Below are positions 34,802 to 63,800 of a DNA stretch of 64,000 nucleotides, piece after piece. The stretch is from Taiwanofungus camphoratus. Taxonomy: Eukaryota; Basidiomycota; Agaricomycetes; Polyporales; Taiwanofungaceae. Position 1 is the stretch's first letter; the number at the start of each line of letters is the position of its first letter. The stretch lies in the NCBI GenBank assembly GCA_003999685.1, contig CP021225.1, positions 1,426,001-1,490,000 on the forward strand, read 5' to 3'. A program made the position numbers and the translations under genes. The notes beneath the pieces were generated by a model. The model worked only from the letters and a program-made list of their open reading frames with translations, made no database searches and was not told the origin of the DNA.

Positions 34802-35782
34802 TTACAGGCGAGTCACGCGACTGCAGGGATCACCGACACGGCAGACACGGGCCAATTGACGAAGCTCAAAGAGGCTTAACATATTGATGTAAATATGATC
34901 AATGTGTCAGCAACTTGGCTAAGCTCCCCAAGCCAATGAAATATTTTTGATGTGGGGCACCAAAGAGTAAGAACATGTACAAAGGCTTCACACAGCAGAC
35001 ATGGCCCAATTGGTGAGGGTAAAAGGGACATAAAATATTGGTTGAAATATGGTCAATATGTCAAAGAATTTGTGAGGGTTGCAGGGCTGCTGAATTTGCC
35101 TTACAATCTTATGCTCTGATTGGCCTAGCAGCTAACTTTTGAATGGATTTGTGTTTTTGACTGTATGAGTCTCACAGCTTGTTCTAGAACAGAGATGAAT
35201 AAATACTCAGTCTCATGTTATACAAGTACTTTATAGAATTGCTAACCTAGAACAGAGATGAATAAATACTACTCTATGTCAGTAAAAGTAGTATACTTTA
35301 GAATTAACTCTACTCACCTCAGTCTCACATTATATGAGTACTGAGATGTGTCAATGAAAACTTTGCATGCATACTGTACTGATTATATAAGTGTTGGAAA
35401 TTCCAGTTTCTATGCTCAGTACATACAGATCACATAATCTAATGTAGTACTTTACCTGTTCATACATATCTGATTTGATATGTGTTTGCTGGTGGAGACC
35501 AGGTGAAACATGGTCTATTCTTCCTCTGTTGTGTGGTCCCAGCTAAATTACAACACAAACACATCTTGGATAGTGACTGGCACCATTGCTAGAGTACATC
35601 AAGACCATCAAATGTCAGATCTTGACTGTTCCAAGCCCTGTCAGTATATGCAGAAGACCTCACTGTTCAAGAGGTAGCCCACAGACTACCTGTTCTGTGA
35701 CTACTCTCAGCTGTGATAAAGGCTTGAGCAGCAAGGTTTGTGCTGACAGCCAGTCCAACTGAGACCATCAGCCATAGCATGG
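34802..35782. other. CpG-poor intergenic or relic repeat sequence
   Basis: Low CpG content after the first 60 bp. The phrase CTAGAACAGAGATGAATAAATACT occurs twice (about 35185 and 35250) with shared ends, a small duplication. No coding signal. Confidence 0.5.
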
Positions 35783-37391
35783 TGATGAGTTCCGTAGCCG
35801 CCTGGGCCCCGAATCGTGATTTCAGGAGCTTTCTAATCCCCCAACCGACCATCCTAAGACTCTTCTACAGCCTACGACAGGTGGGATAGGTTCCTATAAT
35901 ATTCCTAGTGCCTCCTTTCCTTCCTAAACCCTTCTAACAACCTATGAAGTCCTGCGAAGTCACACGAGGTGCTACAAGGTTTCTAACGCTAGCCACAAAG
36001 TCCCTAACTCCTGCTAAGTCCACTATCGGACACTGCCGGCCCTCTCATACTGTTCTATTGGATCTAGGTCCCAGCTACTATGTCACACATCCCGGGCTTA
36101 GCTAAGAAGTCTTAGCTAAGTCTCTCCTAGCTCTTGTGATTGCAGCTACCTCCGATAGGCTCCGAAACGGTCCGAAGTCCCAGAGGCTGGACTTAGAAAG
36201 CCTTGCGCACCCCATGGGCCTCGATCCTATGCCATAAGGTTCTCCTATGGCGCATCCATATGATCCTCTGCCCAGTTAGGACACCTCCTACCCTGATTAG
36301 GCCAAGTCCTGCTGCTAGAAAACTTCGTACGCTCTTAGCCCACTAAGATAGTTGATCACGGTGCATGGCTGCTCTCGGATAGTCATCCCGCCCTCGTGAA
36401 TGAACTTGGTCACCTTTCTACCGTACATAGTTCCCCTGTTTCAGTTCCTATTTAGTTCCTATCCTCCTCGTGTTCACTTCGGAGCCCATGCGCTGTAGTA
36501 CACATTTCAGACTCGTAAGGATCACTTCGCGCAAGAATAGTTCACCTCACGCTCCCCTATTTAGTCAGAGGTAGTTTACTATGTACGAGAGAGACCCCTC
36601 AGTGCACACTTCTCCCTTTGGAATACCAGTTCTCCTGTAGCTCCGATCTTAGGAAAGTGCCATGAGTACAACCTTAGAAACGGTCCTAAGGCCCCTAAGT
36701 CTCCACCCTAGCTCCGTTTCAGTACCTTTGAACTACGTCTACGCTCACAATATATCTACAAATCACGTCTACGCTTCCTGAACTACGCACTACGATCCAT
36801 GAAGTCGCCATGACTTCGCACTCTTCAGCACATCTCATAGCACCTATCCGGTGGGCCTCCGCCTTAGTTATACCCTTAGGCTCACGTTGCGTTATCCCTA
36901 TGTCCTATGAATAGCCCTACGACTCTCTGATAGCCTTCATTTTAGGCTATAGTACATCCCCCTATGTCTGCGAACCACCCGACCTATGCCTCGAAGTCAT
37001 CAGACACTTCGAAACTTCCAGCGATCTCGTCCTCCCATCCTTATTCCAAGTATTAGCCCTCCGAACCATCCGACCTTTTCTACAGGTCTCCTACGCTAGC
37101 CAAATCTCGCCCACCTCACTCTAACAAGCCTCAAAGCCTTATGCCCTTTAGCTAACTCTAGTTAAAAACTTTGCAGCAGTCTCGTACCATTGGCCAATTG
37201 ATTGAAGCTATATTCCGTTGGCTTATTGCTCCCTAACTCCATACAGCCTATGAAGTCAGCTCGTGCGCTTTAGCTAAAAACTTCGAAGGATTTCGCAGAA
37301 CTTCGAAGGACTGTGCGCACTTCGGAGGGCCTCGCAAGGCCTTAGGGATTGTCTAGCACTTAGGAACAAAATCCTGTTGCGCAGGACCCTT
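35783..37391 (+). mobile_element. LTR family A, copy A1 (3' end missing)
   Basis: Starts TGATGAGTTCCGTAGCC, the family-A left end, and follows the full copies to GCAGGACCCTT, where about the last 170-200 bp are absent. CpG decay is moderate. Left flank ATGG. Together with A2 it forms long inverted arms about 1.3 kb apart. Confidence 0.9.
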
Positions 37392-37503
37392 CTACGCCTG
37401 TAAGTGACTACTGATGATGGTGAGTCATTGAGTAGTCAGATGTGAGGTGTATATGAGGAGTCAGCCTGGCTGATGATGAGTATACACCTAAGTCTTCAAC
37501 CGG
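37392..37503. other. Spacer with two hairpins between inverted LTRs A1 and A2
   Basis: Contains TGACTACT (37405-37412) facing AGTAGTCA (37431-37438), and GTGTATA (37447-37453) facing TATACAC (37481-37487). Ends with CCGG, the target duplication of A2. Confidence 0.55.
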
Positions 37504-37615
37504 TGATATGACCTAGGGGACCCTGGTACCTAGGGAGTGCTCTGCAATGTGGCTGAGAGGTAGTGTGTGAACTGTGGAGATGTGAGGGGAGGAGCTACAA
37601 CCTGTATGATACCGG

Positions 37616-38651
37616 TGATAGGCACCAGGCACTTCTAGGCCCCGTGGAGCGCCCGCACTCGACCCTAGGACCTTAGTCATGGCTTCGATGCCACTCGACG
37701 CATCCGATACAGCCCAAAAAGCCACTGTGGGACTCTCCAATAGCCTCGAATCACGCCACCGCCACTCCGCCAGTTCCGGTCCGATGTTCCGGTGCACTGG
37801 TCCCTCTACGCACAAAACACCACACGCAGTTGCCACTCAATGTCCTTGCACGTGACCGGTCTCGCCACTCCGATATCGCTCGATCTGCTACGACGCACCA
37901 CTCGATGTACTCGATAATGCTACGGCCCTAGGTCTTGTCTTAGTATATTTCATGTATGTTCCTTTGTTTCAGCCTTTCTAGTGACGACAAGTAGCCACCC
38001 CCTCTACAGGCCACTCCGTAGTTCGTAGTACGCAAGTAGTTAGGATGCCACTCGTACTATGCCACTCCCGATGCACCTTACATTATAGTACAGTAGTATA
38101 AACGCGATGTATGGTGTCTCGGAACGACAGAGAAGTTTTCCCCCATCCTGCAGAGCTCAAGAAGAGCACCTTCGATTCAGTCACCTACTGTGTTCTACTG
38201 CGTCCTTCCGTCTTCGATTACGTTCGAAGAGTTGCGTCTACTATCTGCCTTCTACAGTATCTTGAAGGGTTGCGTCTCGTCCGTCTTCAACATCCGTTGA
38301 AGAAGTTGCGTTCAGTCTTACGTCCGCCTTTGAGCCACATCGAAGGGTTGCGCTAGCATCTCTCTCTAACCCAAGTCCGCCTTCTATAGTATTTCGAAGG
38401 GCTGCGTATCAGCTAAGTTCTCACATTTAAGCCTCTCCTTAGTATAGAACAGCATAGTAGCGCATCGAAGCTACATCGAGCAGTCGCAACACACACCGAA
38501 GGTCATCAAAGACCTTCATAGACGTCTCTCGACCCATTTGAGATCGGGAACCCTTTGCTGCTGACTCTCCCCTCCACACTAACTAGTTCTATAGCCTTCC
38601 AGCTTCTCTAGGTTGTACCTCGTTGGGGTTGGAGTGTTATAGTGCGCATCA
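37616..38651 (+). mobile_element. LTR family B, copy B1, nested in A2
   Basis: 1,036 bp from TGATAGGCACC to GTGCGCATCA. Flanks CCGG (37612-37615) and CCGA (38652-38655); uninterrupted A copies read GATACCGGGAAACC at this point, so B1 inserted into LTR A with a 4-bp duplication. No internal element sequence is known for this family from the window. Confidence 0.88.
38160..38408 (+). repeat. Tandem hairpin array inside LTR B
   Basis: Five degenerate units, each with a CTTC...GAAG stem (for example CTTCAACATCCGTTGAAG) followed by a G-rich GGTTGCGT-like tag; tags at about 38231, 38269, 38305, 38347 and 38401. The array recurs in B2 near 48245-48445. Confidence 0.75.
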
Positions 38652-40308
38652 CCGAGAAACCTGTATGTCTTGTTTTTGTAAGTGGGAGAGTAAGGGGTCA
38701 AGGGTCCTGCACAACAGGATCTTGTTCCTAAGTGCTATATGATCCCTAAGGCCTTGCGAGGCCCTTCGAAGTGCGTGAAGTCCTTCGAGGTTCTGCGAAG
38801 TCCTTCGAAGTTTTAGCTAAAGCGCACAAGCTGACTTCGTAGGCTGTATAGGGTTTAGGGAGCAATAAGCTAATAGACTATAGTTTCAACTAAGCGGCAG
38901 AGGGTACGAGACTGCTGCAAAGTCTTTAGCTAGAGTTAGCTAAAGGGCATAAGGCTTAGAGGTTTGTTAGAACGAGGTGGGCGAGATTTGGCTAACATAG
39001 GAGACCTGTAGAAGAGGTCAGATGGTTTGGAGAGCTAATACTTGAAATAGGAATGGGAGAACGAGGTTGCTGGAAGCGCTGAAGTGCCTGATGACTTCGA
39101 GGTGTAGGTCAGAGAGTTTGAGGGCGTAGGGAGATGTACTATAGCCTGAAATGAAGGCTATCAGAGAGTCGTAGGGCTATTCATAGGACGTAGGGATGAC
39201 GCAACGTGAGCCTAAGGGTATAACTAAGGCGGAGGCCCACCGGATAGGTGTTATGAGATGTGCTGAAGGGTGCAAAGACATGGCGACTTTGTGGATTGTA
39301 GTGCGTAGTTCGGGAAGCGTAGACGTGATTTGTAGATATATTGTGAGCGTAGACGTAGTTCAAAGGTACTGAAACGGAGCTAGGGTGGAGACTTAGGGGC
39401 CTTAGGACCGTTTCTAAGGTTGTACTCATGGCACTTTCCTAAGATCGGAGCTACAGGAGAACTGGTATTCCAAAGGGAGAAGTGTGCACTGAGGGGTCTC
39501 TCTCGTACATAGTAAACTACCTCTGACTAAATAGGGGAGCGTGAGGTGAACTATTCTTGCGCGAAGTGATCCTTACGAGTCTGAAATGTGTACTACAGCG
39601 TATGAGCTCCGAAGTGAACACGAGGAGGATAGGAACTAAATAGGAACTGAAACAGGGGAACTATGTACGGTAGAAAGGTGACCAAGTTCATTCACGAGGG
39701 CGGGATGACTATCCGAGAGCAGCCATGCACCATGATCAACTATCTTAGTGGGCTAAGAGCGTACGAAGTTTTCTAGCAGCAGGACTTGGCCTAATCAGGG
39801 TAGGAGGTGTCCTAACTGGGCAGAGGATCATATGGATGCGCCATAGGAGAACCTTATGGCATAGGATCGAGGCCCATGGGGTGCGCAAGGCTTTCTAAGT
39901 CCAGCCTCTGGGACTTCGGACCGTTTCGGAGCCTATCGGAGGTAGCTGCAATCACAAGAGCTAGGAGAGACTTAGCTAAGACTTCTTAGCTAAGCCCGGG
40001 ATGTGTGACGTAGTAGCTGGGACCTAGATCCAATAGAACAGTATGAGAGGGCCGGCAGTGTCCGATAGTGGACTTAGCAGGAGTTAGGGACTTTGTGGCT
40101 AGCGTTAGAAACCTTGTAGCACCTCGTGTGACTTCGCAGGACTTCATAGGTTGTTAGAAGGGTTTAGGAAGGAAAGGAGGCACTAGGAATATTATAGGAA
40201 CCTATCCCACCTGTCGTAGGCTGTAGAAGAGTCTTAGGATGGTCGGTTGGGGGATTAGAAAGCTCCAAAAATCGTGATTTGGGGCCCAGGAGGCTACAGG
40301 ACTCATCA

Positions 40309-40784
40309 CTGGTAGCCCAACAGTCTTGAGAGAGTTGTGGGCTAGTTGTCGTCTAAGTCCTAGTGTAGTCACAAGGATATAGATGGTCTGAGAAGACCCA
40401 TTGAATAGACAAAGACATTGGGGCCTAAGCCCAGTTGTAAAGTACAAATGATAATGACAGTATCAAGGTACACAGTGTAACTAAAGAGGACAAGATTGGG
40501 ATACTCTGCAGTGAGCCCACCCCTTAAGTACTACAATGAGTTTAGGGCAAGTCAGCCCTCACTCCCACAGGTATCGGTACCCATGTCTACCAAGTGTCTG
40601 TGAGTCAGAGGCTCAAATGGCCTCTACTGAGAAATAGTCCATAACTAAGCAGGTGACAGTCAGCCCATCAGGAAGGGTGGTGGTAATCGTAAGTGTACAC
40701 AACCTGCTAGTCCGGTATAGTGAAGAGAAGTAAAAATGTACATCTGCTGATGAGCACAGACAATGGCTGAACCAAGAAAAGGGC
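40309..40784. other. Non-coding tract between A2 and the tRNA-like locus
   Basis: No gene seen. Read on the minus strand it follows the tRNA-like sequence and its T-run, so it could be the body of a SINE, but no second copy was found in the window. Confidence 0.4.
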
Positions 40785-40857
40785 AACACTAGCAGGATTT
40801 GAACCTGCATCCTCTCAACTGGCCTTCTGATGCTTTAGACCATTAAGCTATAGTACT
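40785..40857 (-). ncRNA. tRNA-like sequence, degenerate anticodon arm
   Basis: 73 nt with a 7-bp acceptor (AGTACTA / TAGTGTT, two wobble pairs), D stem GCTT/AAGC, A box TAGCTTAATGG, a perfect T arm GCAGG-TTCAAAT-CCTGC with B box GGTTCAAATCC, and TTTT shortly downstream. The anticodon stem does not pair and base 33 is not T, so no anticodon is assigned. Likely a tRNA pseudogene or SINE head. LTR C1 begins 3 bp upstream of its 5' end. Confidence 0.5.
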
Positions 40858-40859
40858 GG

Positions 40860-42420
40860 TGGTAGGTCTAGTACGATTTCATGCTCTGAATTTGTGTATT
40901 TTTGGTCTCCTGCCCCTTTCTCAGAATGTACTGCCGAGTTTTGGAAGTCCAAATGTTGTAACAAGGACCGAGGGCTCTATTCCATCACTAGGGAGTGCCC
41001 TAACTCAGCAGGCAGGTGTGCTACATGTATCTACTCACACCTTGGCAATCCGGCCTTTCTATTCAAGAAGAACAATGGGATTTCTGATGATAGAAGGTCT
41101 GCCTGACACTCTGAAAGTCCTGTTGAAGAGAAGTGGTCCCTCACGCTCTAGAATGCACACCAGCAGCCTCCCCTAGCATCCTCCTGACCTTTGACAGGTC
41201 TGGGCCTTTGATTGCGATCAATTGAGAAAAGGCACTTTGGTTTTCAGTTTTCGGTCCTCAGTTCTGGTTCTCAGTCTCTCGGTTCGGAGTTCTGGCCTCT
41301 TGTTTATGACATCCATATGATCCCTTGGTATTGCCTAGACCCCCTACGCATTGGCTTGACAGTTCAGCACTCCTAGGTCCCTGTTCCTCTCAAGGTCTGG
41401 TTAGATAGCCCATCTTCCATATGATGATCTTTAGATAAGCATCCCTCACCCTGTGCCATTCCCCAGTAACCTTTCTACTGCATTCAGAGTTCCTGTTTCA
41501 TGTCCTACTTCAGTTGAGTTCCCCATATGGTACACTGATCAGATCCTAGATTTTACGATTTTCAGTTTGTTTTCAGTTTCTTCAGTTTTATTTTGCGTAA
41601 GATACTTTGACACCACAGACCCCTTATGTAGTCTCCTGTACCTACCAGATGGCAGAGAAGATATGCGCTCCTGTCTTGTCTCAAAGAATCTACAGACTTG
41701 TCCCCCAGAGTTCAGATTTGGGCTTCCTGCTCTAAAGCTTCCCAACAGTTTGACAAGGTTCCCCTCCATTGCATCTACGCATTTTGTCAGCCAGCAGTCA
41801 TATTATATTGTATATCGCAGCAGTCATACGTCCTCTACGTTCTACATTCCTGAAGTTGGAGTAACTTCGGTCTGAGTAACCAGCCCCCCTCCTCCTCCTC
41901 ATCCAGCATGCCTCCACCCTCGTTATATCCTATAGGCACATGTTGCATACAGTTCAGTCTATCAGTTATCACCTACGCCAGCTCTATGTCTCATTCCTAC
42001 ATCGGCAGCCCTCAGCAGTATCCTCTCTCCCAATTATATCAGTTTTCAGTTTATTCTTCAGTCCTTGGTTTACCATCAGTTCACCTCCAGTTTTCTTCAA
42101 CTCCTTTGCACCTGGCCGGCATCCTACCAGCCCGCTGCTATTGGATTAGAAGACCACGTTCCTACCTTCCTGGGACTGTTCACACCTCGGCATAAGATCC
42201 TGTCATGCAGGATTCATTGGCCTCTTACTCCTCTGCACACACTAGACTTTTAGAACCCTGACTGTGGTCTAGGTAGTTTCTCTGTCATGTTCATTCACTT
42301 ACCTTTTCCTGTGGTATCTCCCATAGGTACCACACCGCTTTAGCTCTTCCTACTCATTAGGACACATCAGACCTACTCTCTAGGTTCATCCCTCTGTACA
42401 GGACTCCCTAGGTCATATCA
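40860..42420 (+). mobile_element. Solo LTR family C, copy C1
   Basis: About 1,561 bp, TGGTAGGTCT...CTAGGTCATATCA. Flanks CTGG (40856-40859) and CCAG (42421-42424) are the two deamination products of CCGG, fitting a 4-bp duplication. The first 330 bp recur at 42802-43235 and the last 540 bp at 13260-13753 and, inverted, at 44030-44530. Confidence 0.75.
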
Positions 42421-42801
42421 CCAGTCAAACCTAACACTTGTTAGGTGGATGTGGGTACAAACCACTGAAGGCTTCAAACTCCCTCTGGATATAAACCACT
42501 TAAGGCTTCAAACTCTCCAGTTTCATCACTGCACCATTACCACCTTGTAACACTTTGCTGCTGACTTCTCCTTGCACCTAACACAGTTCTATAGTTTCTC
42601 TAGCTTCTCTAGGTCATACCCAGTAGAGGTTGAAGTGCTATAGTACAGTGACTCACAAAACCATTGCAATGTTTGCCACTTTCTGACTGTTTGGCCTATA
42701 TCTCAGCAACCAGATGTATGTATCACTGCTATTATCAACCATGTCTGACTCTCACTTACTCTAAGGCACACCACTTGCACAGGCCAGTATTGAAGATGCA
42801 C
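42421..42801 (+). repeat. CpG-poor fragment with LTR B similarity
   Basis: 42560-42655 (TTTGCTGCTGACTTCTCC through GTTGAAGTGCTATAGT) matches the 3' end of LTR B (38550-38645) after CpG decay. Before it, a 34-bp unit AAACCACT.AAGGCTTCAAAC is doubled (about 42460-42520). Confidence 0.55.
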
Positions 42802-43235: not shown

Positions 43236-44029
43236 GTGATGAGTCCTATAGTCCCCTGGGCTCTAAATCGTGACTTCAGAGACTTTCTAATCCCCTCACA
43301 GGTCATCCTGTGACTCTCCTATAGCCTACAACATTTGAGATATGCTCCTAAGGCACCCTTTGCATTCTAAGTCCTTCTAAAGCCCTACAAAGTCACATGA
43401 AGTACTACAAAGCTTCTAACTCTAGCTACAAAGTCTCTAACCCCTACTAAATCCACTATTGGACACTGCCAGCCCTCCTATATTGTCCTATTTGGTCCAG
43501 ATCTCATCTCCTATGTCATCTATCTCAGGCCTAACTAGAAAATCTTAGCTGAATCTCTTCAATCTCTTGTGGTTATAAACATCTCTGATAGTCTTCAAAA
43601 TGGTCCAAAGTTCTGAAGTCTGGACTTAGAAAGCCTCATGCACTCCCTGGGTCTTGATCCTATGTCATAAGATCCTTCTATGATATGCTCATATGATCCC
43701 TTACTCATTTAGGACACCTCCTACTCTGATTTGGCCAAGTCCCACTGATAGAAACTTCATGCACCCTTAGCACACTATAATAGCTGATCACTGTGCATGC
43801 CTGCTCTCCAATAATCATCCTGCCCTCATGTTTGATCTTGAAAACATTTCTACTGTATGCAGTTTCCCTGTTTCAGTACCTAATTGATTCCTATCCTCCT
43901 TATGGTCACTTCAGAGTTTGCATGTGTTTAGTATACATTTCAGACTTGTAGATACCACTTTGTGTAAGATAGTTCATCTCACCTTCTTCTATTTAGTTGG
44001 ATGTATCCTACAATGTATGACAGAGACCC
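43236..44029 (+). mobile_element. LTR family A, copy A3, CpG-depleted, truncated
   Basis: TGATGAGTCCTATAGTCC start, matches the first half of LTR A with most CpG changed to TpG or CpA; ends where C3 begins. Left flank CCGG. Confidence 0.75.
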
Positions 44030-46670
44030 TGATGGAAGGATGAACCTAGGGAGTAGGTCCAACATGTCTGAAGATAGAAGAGCTAAAGCGGTGTGGTATC
44101 TATGGGGGATACCAGAGGAAAGAGTGGGCAAATGAACATGACAGAGAAACCACCTAGACCACAGTCAGGGTCCTAGAAGTCTAATATGTGCAGAGGAGTA
44201 AGGGGCCAATGAGTCCTGCATGACAGGATCTTATGCCAAAGTGTGGATAGTCCCAAAGAGATAAGAACATACAGTAGTCTTCTAGTCCAGCAAGCTGGTA
44301 GAATACTGGCCAGGTGCAAAGGAGTCGAAGGAAACTGAGGGCGAACCAATGGTAAATCAAAAACCGAAGGATAACCGAGAACTGATATAATCAAGAGAGG
44401 AGATGCTGCTGGGGGATACTGGCATAGAGATGAAGCATAGAGCTGGCATAGATGATAACTGATAGACTGAAATATATGCAACGCGTCCATATAGGGTATA
44501 ATGAGAGCGGAGGCACGCCAGATAAGGGGGAGGAGAGGTGCTGGATACTCAGACCAAAGTTACTCCAACTTCAAGAACATAGGACGTAGGAGAATATAGG
44601 ACTGCTGCGATGTGTGATGTAGTATTGACTGCTGGCTGATAATATGCATAGAGACAATAAAGGGGAACCTTGTCAGACTGTTAGAAAGCCTTAGAACAGA
44701 GGAAACCCAAATCTGAACTTTGGGGGACAAGTCTGTAGATTCTCTGAAATAAAATGAGGGCATGTATTTTCACTGCCATCTGGTAGGTACAGGAGACTAC
44801 ATAAGGGGTCTGTTGATGAGTTCTATGGCCTCCTGGGCTCTGAATTGTGATTTTAAGAGGTTTCTAACCCTCTCACAGCCCATTCTACAGCTCTCCTATA
44901 ATCTATGACATTGGAGATAGGTCTCTAAGACGTTTCTAACACATCTTTCACATTCTAAACCCTTCCAACCTTCTACGAAGTCCTGTGAGGTTGCGCAAAG
45001 TGCTACAAAGTTCCTCACTCTTGCTAAGTCCACTATCAGACACTGCTGGCCCTCTCATATTGTTCTATTGGGTCCAGGTCCCAGCTACTATGTCATCCAT
45101 CCTGGGTTTAGCTAAGAAGGCTTAGCTAAGTCTCTTCAATCTTTTGTGATTGCAGGCACCTCTGATAGTCTCTGAAACGGTCTGAAGTTCTGAAGGCTGG
45201 ACTTAGGAAGCCTTGCGTACCCCCTGGATCTCAATTCTACGTCATAAGGTCCTTCTATGACACACTCATATGATCCCCTACCTATTTAGAACATCTCCTA
45301 CCCCGATTTGGACAAGTCCCACTGGTAGAAACTTTGTACGCCTTTAGCCCACTATGATAGTTGATCACTGTGTATGGCCACTGTCTGATAACCATCCTGC
45401 CCTCATAGGTGATCTTGGCCACCTTTTTACTGTACAAAGTTCCCCTGTTTCAGTTCCTATTTAGTTCCTATCCTTCTCATGGTCACTTTGGAGTCCACAT
45501 GCATTTAGTACACATTTTGGACTTGCAGAGACCACTTCACATAAGATAGTTCACCTCACCCTCTCCTATTTAGCCAGATGTAGTCTACTATGTACGAGAG
45601 ACCTCTCGGTACATGCTATTCCCCCACTTGAGAATACAAGTCCCTCTGCAGCTACGATCTCACAGTGCATTGAGAATAGAAGCCTTAGGATCCATCTAAG
45701 CTTCTAAAGTCCCTCACCTACATTCAGTATCAACTCAGACAACTATGACTACACTTGTAATATAATCTACATCTATCCCTATGCCCTCAAACTATGTCCT
45801 ACGCTCTACAAAGTTGCCATGACTTTGTACACTTCAGATACTCATCCAGTCCCCTATCTGGTGTGCCTCCACTCTAAAGATACCTCACAGACCCACGTTG
45901 CATTATTACCATGTTCCCCTATGTCCTATTTCTTACCCTATGATCTCTGATCCCCTTCCTACCTATCCACTACTCTTCTAAACCCTTCGAAATATGTACT
46001 ATGCTCAGCAGCTTGATCATTGTCCCTCACAACCTTGTAACCTTCTACAACAGCCTATACATCCCTATATCACCTTCCAGTCCTTCTATATATGTCCTAT
46101 CTTGTTTTTATTTCCCCTATCCTCCCCTATGACCATCTGAAGTCCTTCACAGTTTTAGCTAACTCTGACCCACTTGAAAGGCATTAGGAAGTCTGTTGTC
46201 CAATTTGTTACCTTTCACACTCCTATCCCACTTCCTTACATATTAACCCTCACCTCCTATCTCCTCCCTATGCTTCTATCTCCCTTCTGATCCCTTCTAT
46301 GAGCTTCGTCCTACATTGCAGCACTTTGAAGCACTTTGGAGCACATCGCAAGACTTTGGAGGTCTTTGAAAGGCTTTGCATCTCTTAAGGGACATTTAGC
46401 ATGCAAGAGTACATTCCTGAAGTGCAAGACCCTTGACCCCTTACCGCCTCACCTAACAAAACAAGACATACAGGCTACTCGGTATCACACAGGCAATGCT
46501 CCTCCTCCTCTACAGCTATTCACATACACCACTCACTGACCAGCCATTTCAGAGCACTCTCTAGGTACCAGGGTTACCTAGGTTGTATCACCATGGTATC
46601 AACATATCTTTTGCAAAATAGAACTGAAGAAACTGAAAACAAACTGAAAATCATAAAATCTAGAAACCAA
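44030..46670 (-). mobile_element. LTR family C, copy C3, inverted, split by A4
   Basis: 44030-44813 and 46591-46670 together match the reverse complement of 41530-42400: the joint falls in GGGGTCTGT / GGTATCAACATATC, which is continuous in C1. A short piece near its first end is missing. A5 truncates it at 46670. Confidence 0.75.
44814..46590 (+). mobile_element. Solo LTR family A, copy A4, CpG-depleted, nested in C3
   Basis: 1,777 bp from TGATGAGTTCTATGG to CCTAGGTTGTATCA. Flanks CTGT (44810-44813) and CCAT (46591-46594) are both explained by deamination of CCGT. The most decayed full copy. Confidence 0.8.
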
Positions 46671-50393: not shown

Positions 50394-50429
50394 CCTCCTC
50401 TCTATTGAAATCCTGACTGTCCTCAGTCA
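50394..50429 (-). other. Polypurine tract of the family-A element
   Basis: Minus strand TAGAGAGGAGG abuts the LTR. The 36 bp here match 53912-53947 inside pol at 31 positions, so the tract has an internal twin. Confidence 0.65.
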
Positions 50430-50560
50430 GTGTGCGCGACCGTGGGAATTTGTAGCCTATCGCGTCTGATCTGCGAAGCGGGCGATATCCTGATAGAAGC
50501 TAATCGTGGGTGCCTCTTATCTTTTCCTCCTCCTCCCCTTTTGCCTTTCCCTTCCCCATC

Positions 50561-52472: not shown

Positions 52473-55400
52473 TTAGTGAGCTTCGGATGGACTAGAGCCG
52501 GACTTAGGAGAGTAGGGATACGATCCTAGTTCTTCGTCATCGCCTTGGGTGGTAGTCAGCTCTAATTCGCAAAGTCGCTCCGTCGACACGTCCAAGAGTT
52601 CAGTAGGAAGTTCGAGAGCTTTTCGCGCTAAGTAGGGGATGACTCGGAAGGCTGCCGTAGGCCTGTCGAGTACCGAACCATCCAATTCGCATAGGATATA
52701 AGCACCACCTTTGTTTCTAGATACCACGAGTACTGGGCCGAGGTAGCGAGGTCGCATCTTCCAATTTAGGGACTTTTCTATCTGTGTGTTGCGAATTAGT
52801 ACTAAATTGCCCTTTTCGAAGTTGAAATCGTGGATGGAGTGCTTATGCTTTTCTTGGAATCACAGAGCAGCTTGTCTTCGCGCTTCGTAGACCTTCGAAT
52901 GTAGTTCCGCTACCTGAGTCACCCGCTTTTGCAATGCGATAGCTCGACGTGCGATAAGATCGATCGTGGATAGCATGGAGGACGGAGGAGGAAGGATATA
53001 GGTGGCCTCTACGACGTCCAAAGGGATAACAGGGTGGGTGCCAGTGACCGCAAAATAGGGCGAACATCCCATGCACTTTCGAGTCGTGATCCTTTCGGAT
53101 CAGAAGACTGAGTACGTTGCCTGAGACCATTTAGACTCTTCGCCATCCACGGCCTTGAATAGAGCCTGCCTAACATCGAAGTGAGGCCTCTCCACCAGCC
53201 CATTGGCACGCGAATTGTATCCGCTAATTCGGATGTGTCGTAGCTGGTACTTCTTCGCTATATAGTTCATAGCTTTTACGAAGGGAGCGCCGTTGTCCGT
53301 GACTATCTCCGATAGCGCGCCCCACCTACAAACAAAGTCTTCGAAGAGCCATTCTGCCAAAGCTTTAGCCGTCTCCTTGCGAAGCATCCGAAATTCGGGA
53401 TACTGGGTTAGAGAACACCGGCCTTGCACCAAGTACCTAAATCCATTAGAAGGGGGCATATGCATGGTATCTATATGAACCTTTGCGAAGATCGGAGCGG
53501 GCATAGCGACCATAGGAGGGATTAGGATCTGCCGCACTTGGCGAATCTGGCATAGGTGGCAGCTTCGAACATACCAGGCAATGTCGATATGATGGTAGGG
53601 CCATCAAAACCGCTCCGAAATCAGTGCCTTCGTAGCGTGTATTCCTCGATGCGCGACTGCATCGTGACATTCTCGGAGGATTCGTAGACAATCTGCCTGC
53701 TTTACAACTAGTTTGTGAGCTCCTTGTGGATCTTTGCGCCATAGTATGTCCTCATCGAGGAAGAATAGAAGACAGTATTTTACGAAACTTTCGTATTCTG
53801 AATCCGATAGGTTGGCAGGTCTTGCGAGGCTTCATAGGAATTTTGCTACTAAGTCAAGTCTTGCGTCAGCTTCCTTGGCCATTTCGGATCTTGGGACGCT
53901 ATCGTAGCTCTCCTCCTCCCTATTGAAACCTTGGCTGTCCTCAGCCAACTCGGAGGCGAAGGTTGGAGCTATCGGAGATGTGGGGGTTGTGATAGGAATG
54001 TTAGAGGCGAATTTGTAAGGGAATAGGGTAGAAATCGATGGTATAGGATGGGAAGGGGGGGCTTGGATGTGATGTAGAAACGAGTGCATTTTGTCTATCC
54101 AGTCTTCGAAGTCTTCTTCGCTGCTCTCTTCTTGATCTCCTGGCTGGGGGGTTCGTCTTGATAGTCCGTCTGGTCCATGCATCGTACCTGGTACATGTAC
54201 TAGGGTGAAATGAAATGTTAGAATCGATACGATCCAGCGATTTATACTCGCGCTGGGTGCGATGTCCGGATTTTGCAACATCCCTTTGATATATCGTGCG
54301 TCAACTTCCACTATAAGGTTCCTAACTCCGATTAGGTAGATTCGTAGTACGCGAAGTGCTCAAAACAATCCGTAGATCTCTAACTTCGGTTGTGAGAACC
54401 TCCGCTCGCGATCATTTAGGGTGATGGATCCGAAACGATTGTAGAATCGAACTTTAGGGTTGTCCTCATCGCATTGGCAAAGGTGATAGCCAACTGCAAT
54501 ATAGGAGGTGTCAACCGCTAAGATCACGGGCGCACCTGAAAAATAGTTAATGGATTGGAGAGCTGGAGAGGACAGCAAAGCATCCTTAAGGTCCTCCTGC
54601 GCTGCGATTTGCGCTGGACCAAATTCGAAGGGTACTGCCTTTCGTGTTAGGCGTACTAAGGCATCTGCACGATGTGCGAAGTTTCGGATGAAGATACGGA
54701 CCACTCCAATGGTTCCTAAAAAGGCTTGAACGTCAGATAGGGTCGCACAAGGTCCCCAGTTGCATATGGCTGCAACACGAGACTCGTCCGGTAGGCGACC
54801 TTCTGGAGTACACCGATGCCCTACAACGGTGATTTCACGGGCAATTAGAATGCTTTTAGCTCCAGAAAAGGTACCTCCTGCGTAGCGCATGCGTGTGACT
54901 ATCCTATTGAGGTTTGTAAAATGTTCCCAAACAAACTTTCGAATGCCTGGATTCTCCGAAATAGGTACGAGATTGTACGAACTTTCAGGGCCTTTGACCG
55001 GAACATCGTCGATATAGGGAACCGTTAGGTGAGGAATTTCGGGCTGTAGGATGTGCGTAACATCATCGTGGAAGATAGGGACCGAGTTGGTCCACCCCAT
55101 AGGTAGAGTGACCAATCTCATAGCTCCGAAAGGTGTTTGAAATGTCGTAAGCTCGCGTGAAGTCTCCGCTATCAAGCGTTCATCATAGCCTACATATAGA
55201 TCCAACATAGCACCACAAGATCGTCCTCCGAACTGTTCTGCGAGGTGTTCGGGAGTCGGGGGAACGCCTGAGTGTTGAATCGTGACAGCGTTGAGGGGTT
55301 CCAGACTATGTACCAGGCGTAGGGACTTTCCGTCTTTCTTCACCACACAAAACCATCGTGAACGATAGGAAGAATTTGAAGGTTCGTAGACCCCAGCTGC

Positions 55401-57118
55401 AATCTTCTTTTTGATGATTGCGCACACTTCGTTGTAGATTCCGGGTGGGATAGGAATGTTCTTTTGTACCCATGGCGTGTGCGGTACTACCGGAAAGTCG
55501 ATGGGAGGGAAGTACTCCAGCTTGAAGCACCCCCTTTCGGAGTCATTCCAAGCGAACACATCAGCATGTAGGGTCATAAAGTGATGTAGGAGGTCCCTCT
55601 CTGCTGGTTGTAGGAAGTCTCCACTGTGTAGCTTGTCCGTGAGATCGTGCCGTTCTTGCATATATCGCGAAGTAGGTTCGAAAGGTGGTGGAGTCGGTGA
55701 TAGGGTAGGCATTGTCGCTAAAGGGTCACCTTTAATTTCGCGAATGATTCGGAATCGTTCGTCCAAAGTTCCCAGAATAGGGCGAGTCTTCAGCGCTACA
55801 GGCTTGTACTTCTTTTTCGATGCTGCAAATGTAGGAATAGGGGAAGAATCTGACAACTTAGGAAGGGGTACCTTCGGATTAGGAGGTAGGGAAGGTCTTC
55901 GGGCTAACTTCGTGACCTTCGTAGCGTTCCTGGGACCTGGAATGGGGATAGAGGATATGTTTCTAGAGGCGGAAAGCGAAAGCATAGGGAGAGAATTCGA
56001 ATTATCGTGTGAAAGGGAGGGAGCCTCAGGCAGTGTTGCTGCTGCTAGAAAGCCAGATAGCCACCTAGTATGATCAGCAGGACCTTCCGAGACTTTCGAA
56101 GTTTCGCTAAAATAGAGAGACTGCAGATAGCTAGACACAGAGTTAGAGACTGATAGATAGAGCGCAGGAACAGAAATGTTATCTGCCGCATTTACAGCAG
56201 CGAAAGACACGATTTTAGGGGTATCGGATTCATACTCAACGACCAGGGCGACCTCTCCTTGATTTCTCAAATCCTCGAAATCTAAAAACCCGATCGCAAA
56301 TGATTCGAAGAGTTCGCATGGGGGCAACTATAATGATGGGCTGGTAAGAACTTTTGATGTCCTTGAGGCATCGTAGGGATGGTCGCGACTTCGCTCGTGT
56401 TCGGGCATACGATCGTGATGGTCTGCTCCTCGTTTCCGAAGTTCTTAACCACACTCTTGGTTACCACATCGAAGGGACGGCCTAGAAGGATATCGTAGGA
56501 GGGATTGCGTATGACGTGCATCTGTAGGTACAACACAATGTCGCCTACTTGGAACGAGACATTTCGAACCAGTCCTAAGGAACGGTCAATACTGCCATTA
56601 GCAGACTGCATATTTAGCTGCACAGAAGGGTCGTAGATTAGCCCTAAGGCATGACAGACTTGCTCTGACATCGCAACCACTTGTGAACCAGGGTCCACGA
56701 TGCATTCAATTCGCTCTTTGTTGTCGATTAGGGCTTCGATAGAACGGATAGAGTTCGAGTCGCGGGCTACTATAATTTCGGAGGGTTCTTCCTTTCCGGG
56801 TACGTGTCGTAAGTATGTTTCGTAGGGGTCTAGAATGATGGTCGAACCAGGGACAAGGGGTTCACCGTGGCACGATAGTTCGGAGGTTGCTAGCGTCGTT
56901 TTAGAAGTGAGATCGTCTGAGAGTTCCGTAATTTGAGCCATATGAGTAGCCTTAGGATCCATAGACACACGTTTAGGGGTGATAGCTTTGCGATATCGCG
57001 CACGAACATCCAGGGATATAGATAGTAGCTCCTCGGGCGTTAGTGTAACCACTGGTGTTCTCATAGATCGCGCGAATATTTCCTCTGTAAGTTTCTCCTG
57101 ATGAACCGGTGTGATTGT
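52473..57118 (-). pseudogene. Pol of the family-A element: protease, RT, RNase H, integrase; five nonsense codons and one frameshift
   Basis: One ancestral frame. Protease CIVDPGSQVVAMSEQV and ILLGRPFDV; RT with FCVVKKDGKSLRLVHSLEPL, LPMGWTNSVPIF and catalytic YIDDV; RNase H starting ILAVDTSYIAVGYHL; the linker with DARYIKGMLQNPD and HVPGTMHGPDGLSRR; integrase zinc finger HDAVAHRGIHATKA..CHLCQ and DDE residues in VHIDTMH, IVTDNGAPFV and a Glu in GLVERPHFDV; C-terminal MRPRYLGPVLVV. No chromodomain seen. Breaks: frameshift at a five-G run 56320-56324; TGA at 54362-54360, 53834-53832, 53606-53604, 53102-53100 and 52862-52860. Family residues imply Arg (CGA) or Trp (TGG) originally at most of these sites, so the stops are transitions. 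The 5' end at 57118 is cut from gag by LTR A7. Confidence 0.92.
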
Positions 57119-58726
57119 TGATGAGTCCCGTAGCCTCCTGGGCCCCAAATCGCGATTTTAGGAGCTTTCTGATCCCCCAACCGACCACTCTAAGACTCTC
57201 CTACAGCCTACGACAGGAGGGATAGGTTCCTATAATATTCCTAATGCCCCCTCTCCTTCCTAAACCCTCCTAACACCCTACGAAGTCTTGCGAAGCCACA
57301 CGAGGTGCTACGAGATTTCGAATGCTAGACGTGAAGTCCCTAACTCCTGCTAAGTCCACTATCGAACACTGCCGGCCCTCCCATACTGTTCCATTGGATC
57401 TAGGTCCTATCTACTACGTCACTCATCCCGGGCTTAGCTAAGAAGTCTTAGCTAAGTCTCTCCTAGCTCTTGTGATTGCAGCTACCTCCGATAGGCTCCG
57501 AAACGGTCCGAAGTTCCGGAAGTTGGACTTAGGAAGCCTTGTGCACCCCCATGGGTCTCGATCCTATGCCATAAGGTCATCCTAGGGCGTACCCATATGA
57601 CCCTCCACCCAGTTAGGACACCTTCTGCCCCGATTAGGCCAAGTCCCGCTGCTAAGAACTTCGTGCACTCTTAGCCCACTAAGATAGGTGATCACGGTGC
57701 ATGGCCGCTCTCGGATAGTCATCCCGCCCTCGTGAATGAAGTTGGTCACCTTTCTACCGTTCGTAGTTCCCCTGTTTCAGTTCCTAATTAGTTCCTATCC
57801 CCCTTGTGTTCACTTCGGAGTCCATGCGTTTTAGTACACATTTCGGACTCGTAAGGATCACTTCGCGCAAGATTAGTTCACCTCACGCTCCCCTATTTAG
57901 TCAGAGGTAGTTTACTATGTAAGGGAGAGACCCCTCAGTGCACGCTTCTCTCTTTGGAATACCAGTTCCCCTGTAGCTCCGATCTCAGGAAAGCGCCGCG
58001 AGTACAGCCTTAGGAACGGTCCTAAGGTCCCTAAGTCTCCACCCCAGCTTCGTTTCAGTACCTTTGAACTACGTCTACGCTCGCGATATATCTACGAACC
58101 ACGTCTACGCTTCCCGAACTACGCACTACGATCTACGAAAGTCGCCGTGACTTCGCACCCTTCAGCACCTCTTATAGCACCTATCCGGTGGGCCTCCGCC
58201 TTAGTTATACCCTTAGGCTCACGTTGCGTCATCCCTACGTCCTACGAATAGCCCTACGACTCTCCCATAGCCTTAGTTTCAGGCTATAGTACATCTCCCT
58301 ACGCCCTCGAACTCTCTGACCTCTCCTACAGGTCTCCTACGCTAGCCAAACCTCGCCCACCTCGCTCTAACAAACCTCTAAACCTTACGCCCTTTAGCTA
58401 ACTCTAGCTAAAAGGACTTCGCAGCATCTACGAAGTCAGCTCGTGCGATTTAGCTAAAACTTCGAAGGACTTTGCAAAATCTCGAAGAACTTTGTGTACT
58501 TCGGAGGGCCTCGCAAGGCCTTAGGGATAGTATAGCACTTAGGAACAAGATCCTGTTGTGCAGGACCCTTGACCCCTTACTCCCCTACTTACAAAAACAA
58601 GACACACAGGTTTCCCGGTATCATACAGGTTGTAGCTCCTACCCTCACACCCTCACAGTTATCACACTACCCCACAGCCACGTTGCGGAGCACTCCCTAG
58701 GTACCAGGGTCCCCTAGGTCGTATCA
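57119..58726 (+). repeat. LTR A7, plus orientation, upstream of the flipped gag
   Basis: 1,608 bp from TGATGAGTCCCG to CTAGGTCGTATCA. Its left side cuts pol (flank TTGT, 57115-57118); its right side runs into PBS and gag in proper 5' LTR order. Confidence 0.92.
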
Positions 58727-58730
58727 TTTC

Positions 58731-58748
58731 TGGAGCCCACCGCGAGGG
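58731..58748 (+). other. Primer-binding site of the family-A element
   Basis: TGGAGCCCACCGCGAGG begins 4 nt after LTR A7. A PBS starting TGG pairs with a tRNA 3' CCA end; the tRNA was not identified. This differs from the self-primed chromovirus at 14-21 kb. Confidence 0.7.
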
Positions 58749-58766
58749 GGAGCAGTCAAGATTTCA

Positions 58767-60867
58767 TTGCCTTCAGATCATCCTACGTCTAACCAGTCCT
58801 CTCCAAGAAACAGCGATCAGTTACTATCCGAGTTCTTTCAGGTCGGCTATCATTACTACACTCAAGCAGGCCTTCCACGAAGCACCTCTTCGCGAACACC
58901 TACGACTATCCCCTCCGATATCATTTCTACACTCGAATCTTCCAAATTGACCCCCGACTTCGAGGCTCTTTTCGAAGGGTCTCTAGACACGCTTACCACG
59001 TCCGAAGACTCACCAATTGAGGACTTCGAACCTCAGTCCACGTCCCCTGAGCTTCCTAACACCTCCGAAGAAAGCGGTCCTTCTTCAGTGTCTGACCCTA
59101 TCTTAGTCCATTTACCAGAATCCCCTCAGCTATCCTCTACGCTCCCATCAGCTTCGTGTTCCCCTCCGATTCCTTCTATTACACTTTCCGACGCTTCTAC
59201 GACCCAATCTTCTTCAGCTAGCATCAACTCAGCATCGAACCCATCTTTGACCGCACCCATTTTAGCTAATCCCCTATATCCTATTTCTGTGTCAACCATG
59301 AACGCACCTCCACTCATGCCACCTCGAGGAGATCGTACATCCCCCACCTTCGATCCTGACCAGCCTAGGACCATCCGAAGGTATTTCCAGGACTTAGAGT
59401 CACTTTTTGTCCACTGCCAGATAGCGGATGAGGCAACGAAGAAACACTGGACTACTCGCTACCCTCCTATCGATGTTTCGAACCTATGGGAGTCCCTCCC
59501 TGAGTGTTCCGATGTCACGAAGATCTACGAAGACTTCAAGAAGGAGATTAGAAGCCTCTACCCAGGCACAGAGGACGATAGAATGTGGTCTATGTCCGAC
59601 TTGGATCAGTTGATAGGAGAATGTGCTAGAATTGGAATCAACAATGCGGCAGACCTAGGAAGCTTCTATCGTGAGTTTTATGCCATCACGAAGTATCTAA
59701 TTTCGAAGAATAGGTTGTCTACTATCGAGCAAAGCCGTGCTTTCGCGAGGGCCTTCCAGCCTTCGCTATGGGCTCGTGTGTCTACTAGGTTACAGCTAAA
59801 GTTCCCTGATCACTTACCCGATGATCCCTACACCTTGGACCAGCTACATAGCGCAGCGAAGTTCGTACTCCTTGGTACTTCTACGACTCTTACCTCTGCT
59901 ACGACTGTAACTGCTTCGACCACTGCCATGCCCGTGGGGGGCTCATTGCTAAAGATAGAGGATCTACAGACGTTCACAGAGATCCTCACGAAGTCCGTAA
60001 CCAGTGCACTAGCTCCTGTTCTTGCGAACCAGCGACCCCCTCGATTGGACAGCTCGCGCGGCGAGCACACTCATGTGGAAGGCCAGTACTGTCACTATTG
60101 CGGGGACTTGGACTGCTGCACTAGGTGTTGCAAGCACATTGAGCAAGACATCAAGGATGGCAAGTGCAAGCGCAACCCAGATGGAAAGATAGTGCTGCCA
60201 AATGGAAATTTCGTACCCAGAACGATCCCAGGACGTACGATTCGCGATAGGCTTTACGAATACCATCGACGAAATGGCACGAATTCCTCCTCACAGCTCC
60301 TATTCGAAATCGACAATCGCCTAAATGTGCCCGCATTCTCATTATCTGCCGAGGATCGTATAGCCGCTTTAGAACACGAGATTTACCAACTTCGGAGACG
60401 TCGCGAAGTCTTCGATGGTGTGGAAGTACCCCAGCGCAGAAGGCAGGGTGCTCCTGACACACAGTCTGATCCTAGAAACCCACCCATAGCCAACGCACCT
60501 CCGATAGGACGCGCTCAGCATCCAGTAGTGGATCTCCCTGCTAACCAAGATGCCCCAGTAGCAGAGGCACAGAACCAGACCCCTCCTACCATTCTAAGGC
60601 GATCCAATTATCCTTCTAATTCAGCGCCTTCACCTCCGAAGCCTGCGAATGCGTCCAACCCACCCACGAACTCATCGGAGCATGCCTCGTCTACACCTAA
60701 CGTACCAGCCCAACCAGCATCACAGGCAGCCATTCCACCGCCCGCTCCACCAGTACATCCTTTCGCTAATGCTCGAGATGCTACTTACGCACCTCCGAAT
60801 CTTCGAAATTTCACAGCAGCTCCGAAGCCTACAGCAGACAAAGGCAAGGATTTGGCCTATAAGACGA
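58767..60867 (+). CDS. Gag of the family-A element, inverted relative to its pol
   Basis: About 700 codons, open until three codons inside LTR A9 (stop at 60875). N-terminal 190 residues are Ser/Pro/Thr-rich; a capsid-like part follows (FDPDQPRTIRRYFQDLESLF, WTTRYPPIDVSNLWESLPEC); then a cysteine-rich segment CHYCGDLDCCTRCC, which has the spacing of a zinc knuckle (C-x2-C-x4-x-x4-C) with Cys in the usual His place; then a conserved basic stretch (GKIVLPNGNFVPRTIPGRTI) and a Pro-rich tail. No ATG opens the frame: the reading frame passes TTG at 58767 without a Met. The end, ...GKDLAYKT, flows in frame into the pol start (ITPVHQEKLTEE) if LTR and one duplication copy are removed, so gag-pol was one ORF. 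Confidence 0.85.
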
Positions 60868-63800
60868 TGATATGACCTAGGGGACCCTGGTACCTAGGGA
60901 GTGCTCCGCAACGTGGCTGTGGGGTAGTGTGATAACTGTGGTGGTGTGAGGGTAGGAGCTACAACCTGTATGATACCGGGAAACCTGTGTGTCTTGTTTT
61001 TGTAAGTAGGGGAGTAAGGGGTCAAGGGTCCTGCACAACAGGATCTTGTTCCTAAGTGCTATACTATCCCTAAGGCCTTGCGAGGCCCTCCGAAGTACAC
61101 AAAGTTCTTCGAGATTTTGCAAAGTCCTTCGAAGTTTTAGCTAAATCGCACGAGCTGACTTCGTAGATGCTGCGAAGTCCTTTTAGCTAGAGTTAGCTAA
61201 AGGGCGTAAGGTTTAGAGGTTTGTTAGAGCGAGGTGGGCGAGGTTTGGCTAGCGTAGGAGACCTGTAGGAGAGGTCAGAGAGTTCGAGGGCATAGGGAGA
61301 TGTACTATAGCCTGAAACTAAGGCTATGGGAGAGTCGTAGGGCTATTCGTAGGACGTAGGGATGACGCAACGTGAGCCTAAGGGTATAACTAAGGTGGAG
61401 GCCCACCGGGTAGATGCTATATGAGGTGTCGAAAGGTGCGAAGTCACGGCGACTTTCGTAGATCGTAGTGCGTAGTTCGGGAAGCGTAGACGTGGTTCGT
61501 AGATATATCGCGATGATGAGTCCCGTAGCCTCCTGGCCCCCGAATCGCGATTTTAGGAGCTTTCTAATCCCCCAACCGACCACTCTAAGACTCTCCTACA
61601 GCCTACGACAGGAGGGATAGGTTCCTATAATATTCCTAACGCGCCCTCTCCTTCCTAAACCCTCCTAACACCCTACGAAGTCTTGCGAAGTCACACGAGG
61701 TGCTACGAGATTTCGAATGCTAGACGCGAAGTCCCTAACTCCTGCTAAGTCCACTATCGGACACTGCCGGCCCTCCCATACTGTTCCATTGGATCTAGGT
61801 CCTATCTACTACGTCACTCATCCCGGGCTTAGCTAAGAAGTCTTAGCTAAGTCTCTCCTAGCTCTTGTGATTGCAGCTACCTCCGATAGGCTCCGAAACG
61901 GTCCGAAGTTCCGGAAGTTGGACTTAGGAAGCCTTGTGCACCCCCATGGGTCTTGATCCTATGCCATAAGGTCATCCTAGGGCGTACCCATATGACCCTC
62001 CACCCAGTTAGGACACCTCCTGCCCCGATTAGGCCAAGTCCCGCTGCTAAGAACTTCGTGCGCTCTTAGCCCACTAAGATAGGTGATCACGGTGCATGGC
62101 CGCTCTCGGATAGTCATCCCGCCCTCGTGAATGAACTTGGTCACCTTTCTACCGTACGTAGTTCCCCTGTTTCAGTTCCTAATTAGTTCCTATCCTCCTC
62201 GTGTTCACTTCGGAGTCCATGCACTTTAGTACACATTTCGGACTCGTAAGGATCACTTCGCGCAAGATTAGTTCACCTCACGCTCCCCTATTTAGTCAGA
62301 GGTAGTTTACTATGTACGAGAAAGACCCCTCAGTGCACGCTTCTCTCGTTGGAATACCAGTTCCCCTGTAGCTCCGATCTCAGGAAAGCGCCGTGAGTAC
62401 AGCCTTAGGAACGGTCCTAAGGTCCCTAAGTCTCCACCCCAGCTTCGTTTCAGTATCTTTGAACTACGTCTACGCTCGCGATATATCTACGAACTACGTC
62501 TACGCTTCCCGAACTACGCACTACGATCTACGAAGTCGCTGTGACTTCGTGCCCTTCAGCACCTCTTATAGCACCTATCCGGTGGGCCTCCGCCTTAGTT
62601 ATACCCTTAGGCTCACGTTGCGTCATCCCTACGTTCTACGAATAACCCTACGACTCTCCCATAGCCTTAGTTTCAGGCTATAGTACATCTCCCTATGCCC
62701 TCGAACTCTCTGACCTCTCCTACAAGTCTCCTACGCCAGCCAAACCTCGCCCACCTCGCTCTAACAAACCTCTAAGCCTTACACCCTTTAGCTAACTCTA
62801 GCTAAAAGGACTTCGCAGCAGTCTCGTACCCTCTGCCGCTTAGTAGAAATTATAGTCCATTGGCTTATTGCTCCCTAACTCTATACAGCCTACGAAGTCA
62901 GCTCGCGCGATTTAGCTAAAACTTCGAAGGACTTCGCAGAATCTCGAAGGACTTCGCGTACTTCGGAGGGCCTCGCAAGGCCTTAGGGATAGTATAACAC
63001 TTAGGAACAAGATCCTGTTGTGCAGGACCCTTGACCCCTTACTCCCCTATTTACAAAAACAAGACATACAGGTTTCCCGGTATCATACAGGTTGTAGCTC
63101 CTACCCTCACACCACCACAGTTATCACACTACCCCCAGCCACGTTGCGGAGCACTCCCTAGGTACCAGGGTCCCCTAGGTCGTATCAGCGATCGTAGACG
63201 TAGTTCAAAGATACTGAAACGAAGCTGGGGTGGAGACTTAGGGACCTTAGGACCGTTCCTAAGGCTGTACTCACGGCACTTTCCTGAGATCGGAGCTACA
63301 GGGGAACTGGTATTCCAAAGAGAGAAGCGTCCACTGAGGGGTCTCTGTCTTACATAGTAAACTACCTCTGACTAAATAGGGGAACGTGAGGTGAACTAAT
63401 CTTGCGCGAAGCGATCCTTATGAGTCCGAAATGTGTACTAAAGCGCATGGACTCCGAAGTGAACACGAGGAGGATAGGAACTAATTAGGAACTGAAACAG
63501 GGGAACTACGTACGGTAGAAAGGTGACCAAGTTCATTCACGAGGGCGGGATGACTATCCGAGAGCGGCCATGCACCGTGATCACCTATCTTAGTGGGCTA
63601 AGAGCGCACGAAGTTCTTAGCAGCGGGACTTGGCCTAATCGGGGCAGGAGGTGTCCTAACTGGGTGGAGGGTCATATGGGTACGCCCTAGGATGACCTTA
63701 TGGCATAGGATCAAGACCCATGGGGGTGCACAAGGCTTCCTAAGTCCAACTTCCGGAACTTCGGACCGTTTCGGAGCCTATCGGAGGTAGCTGCAATCAC

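Follow-up and report, generated by a model that had tools for sequence, protein, structure and literature searches.

Three LTR retrotransposon families of the fungus Taiwanofungus camphoratus insert with 4-bp target duplications centred on CpG

A 64-kb stretch of the genome of Taiwanofungus camphoratus (Polyporales; contig CP021225.1, positions 1,426,001 to 1,490,000; the whole stretch of 64,000 nucleotides is hereafter the window) holds, from 35.8 to 64 kb, a nest of long terminal repeats (LTRs) that self-comparison and reading of the sequence resolve into three families, A, B and C, with LTR tips TGAT...ATCA. All three insert with 4-bp target duplications, almost only at sites with CpG at their exact centre, and a chromovirus of the same genome with similar LTR tips does not follow this rule. 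An original prediction, made from the window alone, had claimed such duplications for the three families; the claim is borne out and is stronger genome-wide, with CG at 238 of 318 outer junctions of family A. The likely explanation is that the integrase of a chromodomain-less Ty3/Gypsy lineage reads the central CpG directly and that junctions with a central TG or CA reflect later decay.

Results

Insertion sites of family A across the genome

The genome comprises 33.19 Mb in 15 contigs (the W1 assembly as published has 16 superscaffolds and 14 nuclear chromosomes, PMC8865532). Family A LTR starts were counted with an exact degenerate pattern, leaving out more diverged copies, and numbered 359, with CG at positions -3 and -2 in 238 and any pyrimidine-purine (YR) step there in 316. 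The motif GGAGG, the end of the polypurine tract, precedes 41 starts, which were taken as inner ends, and the 318 outer junctions comprise 238 CG (75%), 78 other YR and two that are neither. A detailed census of the first 100 starts in genome order, with all 36 non-CG starts inspected, yielded 64 CG, 20 TG/CA, 16 polypurine tracts and nothing else, such that 84 of 84 outer junctions are CG or one C-to-T step from CG. TA was found at the centre of none of these 84 and of none of the YR matches listed genome-wide. Based on the dinucleotide background of the window (CG 4.8%, TG 6.7%, CA 6.4%, TA 5.9%), the binomial probability is 1e-63 for CG/TG/CA at 84/84 junctions and 1e-66 for CG at 64/84.

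Sixty family A loci were also sampled by similarity, 30 for each LTR end; these came first among the 40 and 41 places listed, out of 482 and 506 candidates. With three polypurine-tract and two primer-binding-site ends dropped, these loci provided 43 left and 36 right outer junctions, of which 40 and 35, respectively, are NCGN and the remaining three and one are TG/CA. Among 15 copies with both sides available, 13 have an identical 4-mer at the two ends, in all 13 cases NCGN. For 11 of the 13 duplications, an empty site (an uninterrupted relative of the target) contains the 4-mer once, unchanged or, in some relatives, altered, in most cases through a C-to-T change at the CG; uninterrupted relatives of the targets of loci L055 and L038 were not found in the DNA compared. 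The empty sites show that the CpG was present before insertion and argue against misplaced boundaries.

Families B and C and the chromovirus control

Families B and C follow the same rule to differing degrees. The sample of family B (40 of 41 places listed, the window's own left out; 270 candidates) consists of 28 CG, three TG/CA, eight inner ends at the primer binding site and one misfit, with CG/TG/CA at 31 of 32 outer junctions. For family C, 20 of 41 places listed (151 candidates) were read by eye, and the 20 outer junctions are seven CG, 11 TG/CA and two misfits (18/20 CG/TG/CA). The listed C copies are 83–92% identical to the query, such that more decay is expected in this family.

The chromovirus at 14187–21246 of the window has LTR tips (TGATAC...GTATCA) that resemble those of family A and a 4-bp duplication that was read as GGAG in the prediction and again here. 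Of 38 starts of this family (from 40 listed of 238 candidates, after exclusion of its own two), 18 proved to be inner ends, and among the 20 outer junctions one is CG and two are TG/CA, a background level (3/20, p 0.7) that differs from the family A junctions with a Fisher p of 8e-17. As this element, in the same genome and with similar tips, remains at background, the CpG rule cannot be due to the host alone or to the LTR tip alone.

Shape of the target rule

In the flank profiles, the left and right flanks of one copy were counted separately. The logo of 63 family A flanks has CG at the two central positions of the duplication, as had been expected, with 1.8 bits each, while the outer two positions carry 0.30 and 0.44 bits and every position outside the duplication carries ≤0.12 bits; the target rule of family A is VCGB, with little signal beyond the duplication. 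Across 70 family A flanks, CG occurs at the central offset 66 times, whereas at the remaining offsets it averages 3.7 and never exceeds 12, and the CpG observed/expected ratio of the flanks is 0.88. The integration machinery had been proposed to prefer CpG, and this part stands on the CpG at the duplication centre in three families, the genome counts of family A, the control and the empty sites; an attraction to CpG-rich DNA does not, given how far the central offset exceeds the rest.

Compared to all NCGN of the window and after strand symmetrisation, CCGG is enriched 5.4-fold and GCGG/CCGC 3-fold, and TCGA, TCGT and ACGA occur at 0 of 59 family A sites. A final A is disfavoured, not forbidden, since some CGA junctions occur among the whole-genome matches listed and the window itself has ACGA and GCGA. 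The logo of 31 family B flanks has 1.65 and 1.79 bits at its centre.

The same CpG within B LTRs (GAGGGACCGG) bears a family A insertion at three loci (L046, L049 and L099), which may be either a hot spot or a set of copied segments.

Elements of the window

The LTRs of family A measure 1608–1674 bp (two complete copies), that of family B 1036 bp (37616–38651), longer than a truncated copy had implied, and that of family C 1561 bp (C1). The start of C1 reads TGGT, and the TGAT start of family C was taken from L110, the locus to the right of the window, of which the first 1500 bases were read (L110:154-157 is window 64154–64157). The elements are as follows:

35783–37391, plus strand: A1, family A LTR that has lost its 3' end; left flank ATGG (35779–35782)
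37504–40308, minus strand: A2, family A LTR interrupted by B1; flanks CCGG (37500–37503) and CTGG (40309–40312)
37616–38651, plus strand: B1, family B LTR within A2; flanks CCGG (37612–37615) and CCGA (38652–38655); orientation from primer-binding-site flanks
40860–42420, plus strand: C1, family C LTR; flanks CTGG (40856–40859) and CCAG (42421–42424)
43237–44029, plus strand: A3, an old family A LTR, truncated, with CpG observed/expected 0.03; left flank CCGG
44030–44813, minus strand: C2, first piece of a family C LTR that resumes at 46591–46670 and in L110; ends ACCC (44026–44029) and CCAA (L110:837-840)
44814–46590, plus strand: A4, old family A LTR within C2; flanks CTGT and CCAT (46591–46594)
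46671–47986, minus strand: A5, family A LTR cut by B2; flank CCAA (46667–46670), partner CCGA (L110:154-157)
47987–48785, minus strand: B2, family B LTR within A5, cut by A6; flank TTGG, which is TCGG in uninterrupted A copies
48786–50393, minus strand: A6, family A 3' LTR; flank CCGG; polypurine tract at the inner side
50394–57118, minus strand: pol region of a disrupted family A element; protease 56282–57148, reverse transcriptase-RNase H 54360–56327, integrase core 53100–53603
57119–58726, plus strand: A7, family A LTR; left flank TTGT; the primer binding site TTTCTGGAGCCCACC comes next
58727–60867, plus strand: gag-like open frame, inverted relative to pol, without a Pfam match and named by position; ends at ACGA
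60868–64000, minus strand: A9, family A LTR split by A8, ending at 64153 (L110:153); flanks ACGA (60864–60867) and CCGA (64154–64157)
61514–63187, plus strand: A8, solo family A LTR; exact duplication GCGA and GCGA
14187–21246, minus strand: chromovirus with a chromodomain, the negative control family; LTRs 14187–14741 and 20692–21246; duplication GGAG

On re-reading, the tetramers predicted for A1, A2, B1, C1, A3, A4, A5, B2, A6, A7, A9 and A8 were recovered, while the GCAC given for C2 was not found at either of its ends. The CCGA at the right end of A9 and the CCAA of A5 would be the two sides of one insertion into a C LTR, with the block from A5 to A9 at a CCGA site. In the window, the A element has been broken up and rearranged: its 3' LTR and pol lie on the minus strand and the gag-like frame is inverted. 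The TTGT of A7 and the ACGA of A9 would form a pair left by an insertion between gag and protease that was followed by inversion between opposed LTRs. Opposed A LTR pairs recur (35783–40308 and 57119–64000) beside the inverted gag-like segment, which suggests recombination between inverted LTRs. No tRNA genes were found in the window by ARAGORN, and a search for a host gene with window positions 6584–8719 as the query returned a self-match only.

CpG decay, methylation and landing context

The CpG observed/expected ratio ranges from 0.03 in A3, 0.23 in A4 and 0.34 in C1 (measured from 41250) to 0.85 in the A7 LTR. Copies with TG/CA junctions more often have decayed CpG at the LTR start (14/20 compared to 27/64, Fisher p 0.04), with the variants tallied by hand and possibly in part representing inherited subfamilies. 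We infer that junctions reading NTGN or NCAN were NCGN at insertion and decayed later.

Most of the sampled family A insertions appear to lie in other repeats: 56 of 63 flanks match other sequence at <98.9% identity, with matches that reach to within 100 bases of the junction, in a comparison with DNA that is itself repeat-rich. Such landing sites fit heterochromatin targeting and fit equally the loss of insertions from genes. Because the sampled copies are mostly in repeats and old LTRs have lost CpG, the target CpGs are probably often methylated; in fungi, DNA methylation falls preferentially in transposable elements (PMC7862722, a review). Pieces of C5 DNA methyltransferase genes (PF00145) are present at G000:C1:488487, C3:1507100, C3:3123747 and C5:190854, among which one is DNMT2-like and one DNMT1-like by eye, and the methyltransferase locus L071 has no open frame of 150 amino acids.

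The prediction had allowed for a preference for methylated CpG. It is conceivable, if doubtful, that the integrase reads 5-methyl-CpG, in which case a silencing mark of the host would direct landing to methylated, already silenced repeats. The element would then not land in active genes, and the deep nesting would be explained by new insertions whose own CpGs become methylated. A review describes lentiviral integration as disfavoured where CpGs are methylated (PMC3185549), an argument against any general assumption that integrases are drawn to methylation.

Element anatomy and classification

Families A, B and C probably constitute one chromodomain-less Ty3/Gypsy lineage, with C assigned by its LTR end and junctions. 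Characteristic of Ty3/Gypsy elements are the short inverted LTR tips TGAT...ATCA, the primer binding site TTTCTGGAGCCCACC, which adjoins the LTR end in both A and B, and the polypurine tract AGGGAGGAGG, which precedes the 3' LTR of family A. The pol order on the minus strand is likewise that of Ty3/Gypsy, with matches to aspartyl protease, RNase H, and the zinc-binding and core domains of integrase; RVT_1 stays short of the 1e-3 level in the window copy. The integrase cores of elements near B LTRs are ~73–77% identical to those of A, a link to family B by proximity.

At loci with an open frame, the integrase part has a zinc-binding domain and a catalytic core. The chromodomain (PF00385), present in the chromovirus of the window, has no match up to E 1 in the 396-amino-acid integrase part of locus L173. 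A targeting domain was sought at the integrase C-terminus, where a weak SH3-like match (E 0.067) was all that turned up. The closest solved relative by sequence is the foamy-virus integrase (E 2e-11). This enzyme makes 4-bp cuts. The residue three after the second catalytic aspartate, the counterpart of foamy-virus A188 (PMC4422553), was tried as a marker of specificity and rejected: it is alanine in family A and varied among the 120 relatives listed.

Discussion

Integration mechanism and alternative explanations

Under the explanation that we hold to be probable, the integrase would join complementary DNA with a 4-base stagger almost only at a central CpG, with family A preferring VCGB and, best of all, CCGG, and would itself read the palindromic CG where the target DNA is bent, at its centre. 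Central target flexibility is conserved among retroviruses and matters more with a shorter stagger (PMC4422553). The strictness of CG and the absence of TA from the census exceed flexibility, which suggests a hydrogen-bond reading of the two central G:C pairs.

Several observations weigh against this explanation. The role of the integrase is itself deduced from the base-exact centring of the CpG. Two of the 318 outer junctions of family A are not YR, L018 and L063 carry different 4-mers on their left and right (every side CG), and the window junctions ACCC (44026–44029) and ATAC (13754–13757) fall outside the NCGN scheme, as the original prediction had already conceded. In family B, L143 is a misfit at which two B ends stand head to head with 33 bases between them, and positions -5 and -11 carry 0.42 and 0.38 bits (31 flanks), so either recognition in B may extend beyond the duplication or the sample is small. 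In family C, L158 (an altered LTR end) and L160 (TTTT) are misfits, and TG/CA outnumber CG, so that C depends on the decay argument. Finally, the C-to-T excess at CpG among the fetched A copies is just about twofold (5.3% compared to 1.9–2.8% elsewhere). The head-to-head ends (L142 and L143, at G000:C9:1108277 and 1108311) are separated by a 33-base spacer that is the primer binding site at one side and ends TTTCAGAAA, and may have arisen by self-integration or a template switch.

A CpG reader of the host, such as a methyl-CpG-binding protein, a DNA methyltransferase or a heterochromatin factor, could tether an integration complex whose integrase is not sequence-specific. The dispersed repeats at 56 of 63 A flanks, the DNA methyltransferase gene pieces in the genome and an integrase without a recognised reader domain are compatible with such a tether, but in 66 of 70 flanks CG falls on precisely the same offset (mean 3.7 elsewhere), and the known tethers of Ty3, Ty5 and HIV give looser spacing, making this arrangement unlikely. 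Far less probable is an integrase that needs just a flexible central YR step, with CG enriched through the CpG-containing repeats landed in. Central flexibility is documented for retroviruses (PMC4422553) and 316 of the 318 outer A junctions are YR; however, TA makes up 5.9% of window dinucleotides and is absent from the 84 census junctions and the YR matches listed, CG accounts for 75% of outer junctions genome-wide, and the flank CpG observed/expected ratio is just 0.88. Some junction contexts do recur, as with the one CpG in B LTRs at L046, L049 and L099, which could point to misplaced LTR ends or a single ancestral junction that was copied, but the flanks are diverse, the outer bases differ between sites and match across the two sides of 13 of 15 copies, and the 4-mer occurs once in uninterrupted homologues of 11 of 13 duplications. 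We regard an artefact of this kind as refuted by the empty sites and hardly credible.

Relation to known elements

A base-exact targeting rule is rare for elements of this type; sequence-specific Gypsy integration is itself already known. The errantivirus ZAM of Drosophila, a member of the Gypsy group, has a palindromic target containing CpG, with the specificity credited largely to its integrase (PMC2527525), and a 4-bp duplication at three insertions (PMC3276498). Its integrase binds the target CGCGCg directly, although nicking in vitro did not need this motif and the motif did not suffice for it (PMC2527525). The families described here share with errantiviruses a sequence-specific palindromic 4-bp target (the VCGB logo in A) and differ from ZAM, which needs CGCGCg (PMC2527525), in that only the central CG is near-obligatory, CCGG being the most enriched 4-mer and GCGC depleted. 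They also differ in their fungal host and in their LTR termini, which are TG...CA (TGAT...ATCA), unlike the AGT/AnT ends of errantiviruses (PMC5408687). The gypsy, Idefix and 412 clades of Drosophila likewise have clade-specific palindromic motifs over a 4-bp duplication, but these are TATA or ATAT and reach beyond the duplication (PMC3276498), whereas the motif in T. camphoratus is CG with, in family A, little outside.

The chromovirus at 14–21 kb shares the genome, the TGATAC...GTATCA tips, a 4-bp duplication and a high copy number with the three families, and differs in having a chromodomain and lacking the CpG rule (3/20 outer junctions CG/TG/CA). Prototype foamy virus, with the closest solved integrase by sequence, prefers a flexible centre, and the target palindrome of retroviruses is weakly conserved (PMC4422553), in contrast to the near-absolute CG found here. 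For plant LTR elements with 4-bp duplications, a GC-rich central dinucleotide has been reported, but as a pooled tendency with AT-rich outer bases and no strict CG (PMC6911290). Among the titles and abstract openings that searches of open-access papers listed, no statement of a CG-centred duplication rule for fungal LTR elements was found, and a term search of PMC3248453, on LTR retrotransposons in fungi, returned neither 'target site' nor 'TSD'.

No relatives with flanks were found in viral contigs (integrase core, 21-base primer-binding-site pattern and integrase alignment) or in genome contigs (alignment), so the CpG rule is known from the T. camphoratus genome alone. Integrase relatives occur in other Agaricomycetes, including Heterobasidion, Hypsizygus, Termitomyces, Mycena and others, and would let the residues that create the specificity be sought. 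The rule followed by this fungal Gypsy lineage, whose ends are ordinary TG/CA, is simpler and concerns a single dinucleotide at the very middle of the duplication. Since CpG is also a methylated dinucleotide in many fungi, the rule offers a way to test whether silencing and targeting are directly linked.

Further observations

If complete, 359 family A LTR starts of ~1.6 kb would represent ~1.7% of the genome from one LTR family, so the published repeat share of T. camphoratus (4.7–6.1%, PMC8865532) may be low. The same paper reports a Gypsy expansion, and the portion of it available contains no target-site statement and not the word methylation. After pol and ahead of the 3' LTR, in the region where an errantivirus would carry env, the A element has antisense open frames with CxxC pairs (window 50504–51938, plus strand); they match no Pfam family above the cut-off and have homologues annotated in T. 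camphoratus, P0122 (92% identity over 83%) and P0123 (67%).

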